DNA of 64,000 nucleotides from Chryseobacterium camelliae (GTDB taxonomy: Bacteria > Bacteroidota > Bacteroidia > Flavobacteriales > Weeksellaceae): positions 186,001 through 250,000 of the forward strand of contig NZ_CP115859.1 of NCBI RefSeq assembly GCF_027920545.1. The letters are read 5' to 3'. Positions 9,979 to 13,143 of the stretch are shown one piece after another (the stretch's first letter is position 1; every line of letters starts with the position of its first letter). A program made the position numbers and the translations under genes. The notes under the pieces are model-generated. The model made no database searches. It was not told where the DNA came from and saw only the letters and a list, made by a program, of their open reading frames with translations.

Positions 9979-11064
9979 ATGGAAAATTTTATTGTATCTG
10001 CAAGAAAGTACCGCCCACAGGAGTTTGATACCGTTGTTGGGCAATCTCACATTACAGATACTTTAGAACACGCTATTGAAGAAAATCAATTAGCTCAGGC
10101 TTTGCTTTTCTGCGGACCGAGAGGAGTGGGTAAAACCACTTGTGCCAGAATTTTGGCAAGAAAGATTAATGAAAAAGACGGGTCTGTTTCAGAAGATGGT
10201 TTTGCCTATAATATCTATGAACTGGATGCGGCATCTAACAACTCTGTAGATGATATCCGGGAATTGATAGATCAGGTTCGTTTTGCTCCTCAGGTAGGTA
10301 AATACAAAGTATATATCATTGACGAGGTTCATATGTTGTCTTCTGCAGCTTTCAATGCATTTCTTAAAACATTGGAAGAACCGCCTGCACATGCTATTTT
10401 TATCTTGGCAACTACTGAAAAGCATAAGATCATTCCAACGATTTTGTCGCGTTGTCAGATTTATGATTTCAAAAGAATTATCATTGAAGATATTCAGGAG
10501 CATCTTAGAAAAATTGCTCAGAAGGAGAATATACAATATGAAGATGATGCCTTGTATTTAATTGCACAAAAAGCAGACGGAGCATTAAGAGATGCGCTTT
10601 CTATTTTTGACAGGCTTTCTACTTTCTCCCAGAAAAACATTACGTTGGCTAAAGCAGCAGAAGTATTGAATATTCTGGATTATGATCAGTATCTTAATAT
10701 CGTTGATTTGGCAAAAGAAAATAAAATTCCAGAAGTTTTGTTTGCCTTCAACGAGATTGTAAAAAAAGGATTCGATCCGCATATCTTTATTGCTGGGCTG
10801 GGAAATCATTTCAGAGATTTGATGATGGCTCAGAATGCTTCTACCATTGAGTTGATTGAAGTTGGAGAACAGACGAAAGTTAAATTTGTGGAGCAGGCTC
10901 AGAAATGGAATGCTCAGCAGTTAATTGATGCTATAGAAATTTGCAATCATGCAGACATCAATTACAAAAACTCAAAAAACCCTAGGCTTACTGTAGAAAT
11001 TGCTTTGATGCAGTTGGCTTCTTTAACGGCTAATGGAGACGTTACAAAAAAAAAAAGTTCATAA
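9979..11064 (+). CDS. dnaX: DNA polymerase III subunit gamma (zero-frame product of dnaX)
   Basis: The 361-residue product is the clamp-loader ATPase: Walker A GPRGVGKT (46-53), DEVH box (115-118) and the SRC sensor motif (157-159). The zinc-binding cysteines usual after Walker A are absent, as in other flavobacterial DnaX proteins. The frame ends at 11064, two codons after a run of 11 A (11046-11056), before the tau-specific part. The next 611 bases are open in the -1 frame and encode a normal DnaX C-terminus. A short gamma form and a frameshifted tau form, as known for Escherichia coli and Thermus, are therefore likely. A homopolymer sequencing error is the main alternative. Confidence 0.9.
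   Translation: MENFIVSARKYRPQEFDTVVGQSHITDTLEHAIEENQLAQALLFCGPRGVGKTTCARILARKINEKDGSVSEDGFAYNIYELDAASNNSVDDIRELIDQVRFAPQVGKYKVYIIDEVHMLSSAAFNAFLKTLEEPPAHAIFILATTEKHKIIPTILSRCQIYDFKRIIIEDIQEHLRKIAQKENIQYEDDALYLIAQKADGALRDALSIFDRLSTFSQKNITLAKAAEVLNILDYDQYLNIVDLAKENKIPEVLFAFNEIVKKGFDPHIFIAGLGNHFRDLMMAQNASTIELIEVGEQTKVKFVEQAQKWNAQQLIDAIEICNHADINYKNSKNPRLTVEIALMQLASLTANGDVTKKKSS
11046..11056 (+). promoter_or_regulatory. Candidate slippage site in dnaX (run of 11 A)
   Basis: Eleven consecutive A, read as AAA codons after ACA and followed by G. A -1 ribosomal shift, or an mRNA with one added or two missing A, joins the gamma frame to the tau frame as VTKKKKFIILAPF (or one Lys fewer). Confidence 0.6.
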
Positions 11065-11675
11065 TATTAGCTCCGTTTCTTAAAGAAAAGCAGGAAGTTC
11101 AGATCCCCGTTCCTGCAAAACCTCAGGAAGTAAAAGAAATAAAAACTGAAACAGTTGTTGCTGTACAGGAGGAAAATATCATTGTAAAAACTTCGAAACC
11201 TTTATCAAAACGGCCGTCCGCATCAGGATTCAGCATCAATTCTTTTTTAACTAAAGAAGAAAAGGTAGAAGTAGATGAAAATGTGGCTGTAAAAACTGAA
11301 AACCTTCCACAACATCACTTCACGGATACAGATCTTCAGGCGGAATGGAATCTCATGCTGAAACAGCTGCAGAAGAAAGACCCATTTGTTTTTAATGCAG
11401 TTAAAACTTTCAAAATGTTCAAATCAAATGAACATCAGATTACAGTTTCATATCCTTCAGATTCTGCAAAAGTTGAATTTGATAAAATAAGCGGTGAATT
11501 TTTCAACCATTTTAAAAGAAAAGCTCATAACTATTCTATTGAAATTGAATACAAAAGAGACTTTGAAAATCTGAAAGTAGAAGTGATGACCAAAAGAAAG
11601 ATCTTCGAAAAATTCACACAAAAAAATCCGCTTCTTAAAGATCTTGATGATTTAATGAGGTTTGATTTGACATAA
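11058..11675 (+). CDS. dnaX: Tau-specific C-terminal part of dnaX, read after a -1 shift
   Basis: From the A run to the stop at 11675 this frame has no stop codon. It begins FIILAPFLKEK, continues with a Pro-, Lys- and Glu-rich linker, and ends in a globular part of about 120 residues (DLQAEWNLMLKQL to LDDLMRFDLT) that matches the usual C-terminus of flavobacterial DnaX. In tau this region binds DnaB helicase and the polymerase core. Joined to the upstream frame it gives 565 residues, a normal tau length. An ATG at 11283 is internal to this part and is unlikely to be a separate gene start. Confidence 0.8.
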   Translation, partial: FIILAPFLKEKQEVQIPVPAKPQEVKEIKTETVVAVQEENIIVKTSKPLSKRPSASGFSINSFLTKEEKVEVDENVAVKTENLPQHHFTDTDLQAEWNLMLKQLQKKDPFVFNAVKTFKMFKSNEHQITVSYPSDSAKVEFDKISGEFFNHFKRKAHNYSIEIEYKRDFENLKVEVMTKRKIFEKFTQKNPLLKDLDDLMRFDLT

Positions 11676-11689
11676 TTTTTATATATTTG
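11662..11689 (+). promoter_or_regulatory. Bacteroidota-type promoter of the aromatic leader and DAHP synthase
   Basis: TTG (11662-11664), a 17-base spacer and TATATTTG (11682-11689) fit the -33/-7 consensus of this phylum. The box overlaps the end of dnaX (stop 11675). Transcription should start near 11694-11696, about 70 bases before the leader frame. Confidence 0.65.
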
Positions 11690-11764
11690 TCAAATATTTG
11701 TACGGAAAATTAGTTTTCGACAAAAACAAATTTATACAGAAAAGCTAGAAATAGACGACTTACA

Positions 11765-11899
11765 GTGGAAAATATATTAAAACCATACCTGTCTGCTCTT
11801 GCACCCGCTAATTACTTTTTTAGCGGTTATTTTAGTTTTTCTTTTACTTATTTTAGAAATTTCAGAAATTATTACCGATTTAGTTATTGGTATTGCTAA
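11765..11899 (+). CDS. Phe/Tyr-rich leader peptide (candidate attenuator) of the DAHP synthase gene
   Basis: A GTG-started frame of 44 codons ends in TAA 164 bases before the DAHP synthase gene. After an ordinary start (ENILKPYLSALAPAN) the peptide becomes strikingly aromatic: clusters YFF, YFSFSF, TYF, NYY and finally SYWYC. In total it has 9 Phe, 8 Tyr and 1 Trp. Such frames upstream of aromatic biosynthesis genes act as leader peptides: slow decoding when charged tRNA-Phe or tRNA-Tyr is scarce prevents a downstream terminator. No ATG is in frame, so the GTG start is inferred. I know of no described leader of this kind in the family. Confidence 0.65.
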   Translation: MENILKPYLSALAPANYFFSGYFSFSFTYFRNFRNYYRFSYWYC

Positions 11900-11924
11900 C
11901 TGAATTTCTTTCCAAAAAATAAAT

Positions 11925-11970
11925 GGGATCATTGAAGTCTTCAATTCCTGTTTCCCTTAATAATAATTTT
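11925..11970 (+). terminator. Candidate attenuator hairpin before the DAHP synthase gene
   Basis: A stem pairs ATTGAAG (11931-11937) with CTTCAAT (11939-11945), extended by GGA (11926-11928) with TCC (11946-11948) across a 2-base bulge. A T-rich stretch (TTAATAATAATTTTT) follows. It begins 25 bases after the leader stop. A second small stem, CCGCTA (11805-11810) with TAGCGG (11821-11826), lies inside the leader frame. Confidence 0.4.
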
Positions 11971-12063
11971 TAACGGCATTTTTTTGAAAGAATTATAAAT
12001 TAACTTTATAATGAAATTGCTATTGCCCCCTATTAAAAACAAGAATAAAATAAATTAACAATA

Positions 12064-13143
12064 ATGAATTTAAAAGATTTAAAAAATGACTGGATCAATG
12101 AGTTTGCTCAGCCCATGATGATTGCAGGACCATGCAGTGCGGAAAGTGAAGCTCAGATGTTGGAAACGGCAAGGAGAATGAAAGAAACCAATGCTCAGGT
12201 GCCGGTTTTCCGTGCAGGAATCTGGAAACCACGTACAAAACCCAACGGATTTGAAGGAGTAGGAGTAATTGGCCTGAACTGGCTGAAAAAAGTGAAGGAA
12301 GAATACGGTTTTAAAACTGCAACGGAAGTTGCCAACGCACACCACGTTTTTGCAGCTTTGGAAGCTGATGTAGATATTCTTTGGATCGGAGCCCGTTCTA
12401 CAGTAAATCCTTTTACCGTTCAGGAAATTGCTCAGGCTTTGAGAGGAACAGATAAAATTGTTTTGGTGAAAAACCCGGTAAATCCGGATTTGGCGTTGTG
12501 GGTAGGTGCTTTGGAAAGGCTTTTGGGACAAGGTATTAAAAATCTGGGAGTTATTCACAGAGGATTCTCTACGTACCAAAAAACAAAATACAGAAATAAT
12601 CCGAACTGGCAGATTGCTTTAGACTTTAAAAGCCAGTTTCCTAACATTCCAATGCTGATTGATCCGTCACATATTTGCGGAAACAGAACAGGTTTGGCAG
12701 ATATTACCCAGGAAGCACTGAACGTAGGTTACCAAGGTGCTATTATCGAATCTCATAGTAATCCTGATGAAGCCTGGAGCGATGCTGCTCAACAAATTAC
12801 TCCGGAAGTTCTGGCAGAATTAATTGGTAATTTAAAAGTCAGAAATACAAATCTGGCAGGATTTGAAGGAGAAATGGGAAGACACAGAACATTGATTTCA
12901 GATCTTGATTTTCAGTTAATTGAATTGCTTTCTCAAAGGATGAAGATTTCTGAAAAAATCGGGAAGCTTAAAAAAGAGAATGATATTGCGATTTTCCAGC
13001 CGGAACGTTGGAAAGTAATTACTGAATACGCGATTCAAAAAGCATTGGAAACGGGAATGTCTCAGGAATTCATAGAAAAAGTCTTCAAGGCAATTCATGA
13101 AGAATCTATTGAAGTTCAGAATAATATTATGATAAACAAATAA
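12064..13143 (+). CDS. Bifunctional DAHP synthase / chorismate mutase type II
   Basis: The 359-residue protein fuses two domains. Residues about 1-265 are a type I-beta (KDO8P synthase-like) DAHP synthase: AGPCSAES near 21, KPRT, GVIHRGFS and IDPSHICGNR, which hold the metal and phosphate ligands. Residues about 275-350 form an AroQ-type chorismate mutase (LDFQLIELLSQRM, EKIGKLKKEN, ESIEVQNNIM). The enzyme condenses phosphoenolpyruvate and erythrose 4-phosphate, the first step of the shikimate pathway; the mutase part makes prephenate and, in related fusions, also acts as feedback site. It stands alone here, preceded by a 388-base gap with a promoter and a Phe/Tyr leader frame. Confidence 0.92.
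   Translation: MNLKDLKNDWINEFAQPMMIAGPCSAESEAQMLETARRMKETNAQVPVFRAGIWKPRTKPNGFEGVGVIGLNWLKKVKEEYGFKTATEVANAHHVFAALEADVDILWIGARSTVNPFTVQEIAQALRGTDKIVLVKNPVNPDLALWVGALERLLGQGIKNLGVIHRGFSTYQKTKYRNNPNWQIALDFKSQFPNIPMLIDPSHICGNRTGLADITQEALNVGYQGAIIESHSNPDEAWSDAAQQITPEVLAELIGNLKVRNTNLAGFEGEMGRHRTLISDLDFQLIELLSQRMKISEKIGKLKKENDIAIFQPERWKVITEYAIQKALETGMSQEFIEKVFKAIHEESIEVQNNIMINK

Follow-up and report, generated by a model that had tools for sequence, protein, structure and literature searches.

The leaders of the Escherichia coli pheL-pheA and trpL systems have a defined intrinsic terminator and antiterminator. Both are described as sensing charged tRNA through a ribosome positioned on control codons (PMC11802643), which is also what we propose for the leader studied here, upstream of a gene for DAHP synthase fused to chorismate mutase (an aroG-type gene, below aroG). 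The E. coli leaders have their defined terminator, whereas none was found in the aroG leader. In Corynebacterium glutamicum, the leader peptide aroR precedes aroF, itself a DAHP synthase gene, and stalling under Phe limitation is described as raising transcription (PMC11802643, PMC7356990). aroR resembles the aroG leader in being a leader peptide located before a DAHP synthase gene and containing Phe-Tyr-Phe, but it belongs to the Actinobacteria, its aromatic run is short, and it is called translational in PMC7356990; the likeness is one of descriptions.

As of 2010, leader peptides were said to be known only from Proteobacteria and Actinobacteria, to which Firmicutes were then added (PMC2965389), and a count of leader genes near starts has included Bacteroidetes (PMC4833913). 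The first-pass annotation of this DNA stated that no such leader was known to it in Flavobacteriia. That claim falls because PMC9723704 describes strong signs of attenuation by leader peptides ahead of amino acid operons of F. psychrophilum, as well as structured 5′ elements at pheA and hisG without an Rfam match. These cases share with the aroG leader the class of bacteria, the association with amino acid operons, and the structured 5′ elements; the section of that paper on such elements does not name a DAHP synthase leader. Leader-like short ORFs are also reported in long 5′ UTRs of Bacteroides thetaiotaomicron (PMC7366714), where, unlike the aroG leader, the example described precedes a hypothetical protein, and is presented there without validation or a demonstration of amino acid sensing. 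For Chryseobacterium, the open-access literature on leader-peptide attenuation yielded nothing past a broad review, and we do not claim that the aroG leader is unpublished.

The locus described below adds to the evidence that amino acid sensing by ribosomes is used in Flavobacteriia, as it is in Proteobacteria. A single genus offers clear his and trp cases, together with a further case at the entry to the aromatic pathway, whose output step appears to differ from the textbook one. Its setting is a phylum in which promoters and the initiation of translation are unusual.

An aromatic-rich leader frame before aroG

The window is a stretch of 64,000 nucleotides from the 3.4-Mb, single-contig genome of Chryseobacterium camelliae. 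In it, 388 bases separate the end of dnaX (11675) from the gene at 12064, and this gap contains the leader frame. The features referred to throughout are the following:

11662 to 11689, + strand: Bacteroidetes-type promoter TTG-N17-TATATTTG, read in the sequence and overlapping the end of dnaX
11765 to 11899, + strand: aromatic leader ORF, 44 codons plus TAA (GTG start; TAA at 11897 to 11899)
11805 to 11826, + strand: hairpin CCGCTAA..TTTTAGCGG within the leader ORF, from a hairpin scan and by eye in the alignment
11856 to 11865, + strand: segment B (codons R-N-F-R), pairing with D, with covariation
11873 to 11892, + strand: hairpin TACCGAT..ATTGGTA formed by the last aromatic codons, from the alignment and pairing counts
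11900 to 11920, + strand: segment D/E directly past the stop codon, CTGAATTTCTTTCCAAAAAAT, able to pair with B or G
11921 to 11953, + strand: hairpin F, its structure kept and its sequence not, with no T-tract directly behind
11972 to 11994, + strand: segment G, AACGGCATTTTTTTGAAAGAATT, complementary to D/E
11992 to 12012, + strand: inverted repeat H, ATTATAAA..TTTATAAT, overlapping a TTGAAA-N17-TATAAT promoter-like match at 11984 to 12012
12064 to 13143, + strand: aroG-type gene, DAHP synthase fused to chorismate mutase (PF00793, PF01817)

The last of these had been named a DAHP synthase-chorismate mutase gene, and the PF00793 and PF01817 matches bear this out, the domains being DAHP synthase type I and chorismate mutase type II. 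Its nearest relatives are found in Chryseobacterium species (98% at C. gwangjuense). Most searched genomes contained two matches to the gene, one full-length and one distant (28% to 33% identical where listed); the distant match is presumably KdsA-like.

The GTG-started frame of 44 codons is present as first reported, with 8 Tyr and 1 Trp, but its Phe residues number 8 and not the 9 originally given, making 17 aromatic residues of 44. Sixteen of these 17 fall within the last 28 codons, in agreement with the earlier remark that most of them lie there. Among 218 ORFs of 35 to 60 amino acids in the six frames of the window, this one ranks top for aromatic content (0.386; runner-up 0.315). The promoter reported at 11662 to 11689 can likewise be read in the sequence, and a TTG-N15..20-TAnnTTTG pattern is found 330 to 436 bases 5′ of the aroG-type gene in 63 of 81 loci. 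Two attributes of an attenuator, a short ORF between promoter and structural gene and the enrichment of that ORF in codons for the pathway product (17/44, conserved), are thus found at the aroG leader.

Database searches returned little for this region. No Rfam family (release 15) matched at gathering score in the whole window, and the four weak matches obtained for 11600 to 12100 at E up to 5 were each under gathering score. The leader peptide had no Pfam match, and a protein search with it, a weak test for a 44-amino-acid query, gave no candidate relative. As a window-wide motif, AACGGCATTTTTTG had 16 matches with at most three mismatches against 16.3 expected. The whole leader of the window folds with a z of −1.90.

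A contig scan of genomes confirmed 290 relatives, from which the best 80 loci were kept (Chryseobacterium titles, two of Weeksellaceae bacterium); with the window they make up the 81 compared. In all 80 of these best loci, the most aromatic short ORF is at the same place, ending 136 to 226 bases before the gene, so the proposed check for an aromatic-rich frame in close relatives came out positive at 80/80 of the best loci of 290, one of them degenerate. Judged from its substitutions, the frame is under purifying selection: dN/dS is 0.30 in the last 24 codons, 0.73 in the front part and 0.48 overall (pairs 3% to 30% apart, relatedness not tree-corrected), third codon positions change most frequently, and in 21 alignment rows any gap within the frame has a length divisible by three. 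The dN/dS values and the gaps favor translation of the ORF. The front of the peptide varies, and the final Tyr-Trp-Tyr is kept at 79, 80, and 80 of 81 sequences. The accompanying expectation of a frame with variable sequence fails because the peptide end is highly conserved. One position swaps between Tyr (45 of 81) and Phe (29 of 81), the last residue is variable (Cys 62, Tyr 10, Ser 7 of 81), and the start codons, as chosen by script, are GTG in 37, ATG in 36, and TTG in 7 of 81, with one gap. In Chryseobacterium gilvum (L106) the leader has decayed to 10 aromatic residues of 41, with G and H partly lost and the promoter kept.

RNA pairing within and behind the frame

An attenuator places its control codons in a stem of the RNA, to be opened by a ribosome that stalls there, and at the aroG leader the B:D stem and the TACCGAT/ATTGGTA hairpin provide such an arrangement. 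The comparison rests on an alignment (A1) of 75 of 88 unique leader sequences, near-duplicates excluded, drawn from 100 leader loci taken by script; L040, L050, L074, L092, and L106 were lost at this stage as the end of H was not located. In A1, 95.3% of cells in B:D and TACCGAT/ATTGGTA are paired. Three of five measures for this paired region lie above all 500 shuffles, and its double-change pairs and further pair types are equalled by 83 and 122 of 500 shuffles.

The covariation in B:D comes mainly from one pair, columns 24 and 66, with 6 C-A exceptions and statistics that ignore relatedness. This pair has 39 C-G, 18 U-A, 2 U-G, 6 C-A, and 10 other combinations in A1 (Fisher p 4e-9 for the C/U by G/A table, a value that ignores kinship of the sequences). 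The base in column 24 occupies the third position of a Phe codon (TTC/TTT), so the change from C-G to U-A leaves the peptide unaltered; that in column 66 comes after the stop codon. The B and D segments of one sequence pair better with each other than with swapped partners, and 0 of 2,000 permutations reach the observed mean. In L037, L044, and L062, a frame shift turns RNFR into an SSER-like sequence, and by eye B still pairs with D, although A1 scores these three as unpaired at B:D. The arms of the hairpin inside the ORF, also compared by eye, are CCGCT..AGCGG, and ACTGCT..AGCAGT in L041.

A hairpin and a T-rich stretch had been noted between the frame and the gene. Both exist, the hairpin at 11921 to 11953 being kept in relatives and T-runs occurring at 11967 to 11971 and, past AACGGCA, at 11979 to 11985, but terminator scans (below) do not support them as a terminator. 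For the hairpin F region, 74 of 75 sequences give a fold of −4 kcal/mol or below and the mean z is −2.05, although the stems differ between sequences (AGGAA/TTCCT, CGGAA/TTCCG, GAGACTC/GAGTTTC). GGCATTTTTTG may be an elemental-pause site, to judge by its fit to the consensus.

Segments D/E and G form an invariant complementary pair. Their complementarity averages −10.25 kcal/mol over 75 sequences (−7.8 to −12.6 in 15) and is matched by 1 to 72 of 1,000 dinucleotide shuffles in ten sequences. The D/E:G helix has no double changes in A1 and no sign of coevolution, 881 of 2,000 permutations doing as well. It overlaps the B:D helix only partly. Masked folding, with bases under the ribosome held unpaired, covered 72 of 81 sequences, the rest having failed the script patterns. 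Expected D/E:G pairs in these 72 numbered 8.0 without a ribosome, 12.7 and 12.2 when one was stalled on the aromatic codons, and 2.3 when it stood at the stop codon, an effect that the masks in part force.

Inverted repeat H has 93.4% of cells paired. Of 500 shuffles, 255 reach this level of pairing and 178 reach its covariation score, so H shows no covariation beyond that of shuffled sequence. Shortly past H, a CTATTG-like hexamer at 12020 to 12025 recurs in many loci of two genera. Pairing of the leader with the start codon, as a translation switch, was considered and rejected: it was above shuffled in 22 of 40 sequences (means 6.35 vs 5.42 expected pairs), and composition therefore explains most of it.

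Sibling leaders and the proposed switch

Two other biosynthetic genes of Chryseobacterium provide a standard for the terminator question. hisG was found in 25 of 26 genomes, and in 25/25 it comes with a leader, for example MNPNFLTVHHYYHHLC, and a terminator, for example AACCGTCTGAGTAAATAGACGG with a T-run (L171 and 24 relatives, L178 to L201). trpE has a WWW leader and a canonical terminator in 26/26 genomes (L173 and 25 relatives, L202 to L226). The strict rule used for these calls does give false matches, having fired on L227, a weaker second trpE-family locus without a Trp leader. Applied to 102 aroG leaders, among them L106, L164, and L165, it finds a terminator in just 3, all three inside hairpin F; a relaxed rule fires in 85 of 102 at scattered positions, many at the stop codon, and is uninformative. 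The intrinsic terminator that an attenuator has between leader and gene was thus not found at the aroG leader in these scans.

Like the aroG leader, the hisG and trpE attenuators have a short cognate-rich ORF (HHYYHH, WWW) before the first biosynthetic gene, and in the genome of the window each is preceded by a TAnnTTTG promoter. They differ in their hairpin and long T-tract, which the aroG leader is without; its peptide is longer than theirs, and it has an extended, conserved 3′ part. The same rule gives 25/25 and 26/26 against 3/102: as read from its sequence, the aroG leader resembles its siblings at the sensing end but is without their output part. The same counts do not support the read-through of an intrinsic terminator that the first-pass annotation had envisaged as classical attenuation. 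In the order, pheA was present in 31 of 60 genomes; among 30 loci inspected, at least seven outside the family of the window have a Phe-rich leader and a terminator (L239, L242, L243, L248, L249, L253, L255), and six of the genus of the window gave no terminator match. The interest of the aroG leader lies in its missing terminator together with its conserved 3′ part; small and conserved, the system lends itself to the question of how attenuation can work without an intrinsic terminator.

The region probably acts in cis, through a leader peptide, to regulate the gene for DAHP synthase-chorismate mutase, and ribosome position would switch the RNA between B:D and D/E:G. The ribosome is likely to sense charged tRNA for Phe and Tyr, and possibly for Trp, a reading to which the comparison lends good support. 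Comparison among relatives supports the conserved frame, the B:D stem, the hairpin at F, and the link to aroG, and from these we infer ribosome stalling, the switch from B:D to D/E:G, and the direction of the response. Transcription would start at the promoter at 11662 to 11689, and a ribosome would translate the 44-codon leader. With ample charged tRNA, the ribosome would get to the stop codon, cover D/E and depart, after which the last aromatic codons would fold into the stem, B with D around TACCGAT/ATTGGTA. With Phe-, Tyr-, or Trp-tRNA scarce, the ribosome would stall on the last aromatic codons (YYRF..YWY) and block B, freeing D/E to pair with G, 50 to 60 bases downstream, and this switch would raise aroG expression. 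As there is no canonical hairpin-plus-T-tract terminator, our first guess for the read-out is factor-dependent or weak termination or a pause site between F and H; the second is processing of the leader RNA. A broader proposal, which we advance with some hesitation, is that the switch responds to all three of the aromatic amino acids where the pathway begins and acts without an intrinsic terminator, its D/E pairing being read by Rho, a nuclease, or a programmed pause, and that it arose in one family as aroG acquired a promoter and a leader of its own. Of the sampled genera of the family that are without the leader, most have the gene right behind dnaX.

Several other explanations of the locus were weighed against this switch. 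Classical attenuation could operate through a weak terminator hairpin, CC(U)UUAA..UUAACGG, right before the T-run of G, unless a ribosome stalls. The T-run of G is indeed kept in most sequences, the pairing CC and GG are common, and L108 to L110 contain, by eye, a matching change from C-G to U-A. The strict matches (3/102), on the other hand, each lie inside hairpin F and the relaxed ones (85/102) are scattered, and a terminator at this T-run is doubtful because the T-run is absent in L167 to L170 (CAATTTCG) and D/E would pair with G too late, the polymerase being already past the T-run; we regard this explanation as unlikely. We give still less credence to G and H as a second aroG promoter or operator (TTGAAA-N17-TATAAT over a palindrome), with the leader transcript separate or interfering. 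The 11/12 match to the sigma-70 consensus and the place of G and H among the most conserved bases would fit a promoter, but the Bacteroidetes promoter consensus requires TAnnTTTG, which is absent at G/H, the two halves of the palindrome differ in spacing by a few bases from locus to locus, which suits an RNA loop better than an operator, and 4 kb contain 11 promoter-like sites against a shuffled mean of 12.4.

The conserved peptide end invites comparison with TnaC, in which the nascent peptide itself arrests the ribosome in response to a free aromatic amino acid. Such an arrest is very improbable here: it sits poorly with the Tyr/Phe swap at one place (45/29 of 81), the varying last residue, and codons of B that change frame with RNA pairing kept, and a free amino acid as inducer would have the wrong sign for a biosynthetic gene. 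If the frame encoded a small, conserved protein of independent function that merely lies before aroG, the purifying selection on it would be accounted for, yet what is kept are aromatic codons and RNA pairs, the Pfam and protein searches (the latter weak for so short a query) were empty, and 41 of 42 covariance model matches (below) adjoin aroG, leaving this idea hardly credible.

Distribution of the leader and the dnaX neighborhood

Beyond the best loci, we inspected 40 additional ones, 35 from the family and 5 from the order or class. Among these 40, a similar leader occurs in two further genera, g9 (L117) and g32 (L140, L144), the gap before the gene in g32 being about 436 bases. The other 32 family loci have the end of dnaX 14 to 208 bases before the gene in 19 cases and no dnaX match within 1.5 kb in 13. 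At L117 the leader is present and the upstream neighbor is not dnaX; the leader therefore travels with aroG rather than with dnaX. In some of the additional loci the gene is preceded, by eye, by pheA- or tyrA-like genes.

Of 11 loci from g9, 10 have the leader and one (L157) is cut by a contig end. Nine divergent loci from g1 have it in six, counting that of L169 from the sequence itself where the script had ranked another ORF first; L164 and L165 have a different aromatic-rich frame before aroG, ending ..FFANTYYCKNINDYCYQ and ..LFFTDIYYCERFHYSF, and L166 has none. A hairpin in L164, AAAAGATATTCAATATCTTTTT, could be a terminator and was flagged by the relaxed scan only.

A covariance model search (E 0.001 or lower, with strict filters that may lose weak matches) of 148 family genomes found 42 with a match, one per genome, in 3 of 33 genera (20 g1, 20 g9, 2 g32). 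By coordinates, 41 of the 42 matches are directly 5′ of an aroG-type gene; the remaining one is from G241, where 147 bases lie between the gene and the end of its contig and the match begins 299 bases into another contig. Under these strict filters, the leader was not found in 30 of the 33 sampled genera, and so the aroG-type gene does not need it.

In the window, a frameshift at eleven consecutive A (11046 to 11056) divides the dnaX gene upstream of the leader (9979 to 11675), with a stop codon then at 11062 to 11064. A run of 10 to 11 A is present in dnaX at 51/51 loci in which the motif was located, out of 80 scanned. The run looks like a case of programmed frameshifting or slippage, a known kind of event in dnaX.
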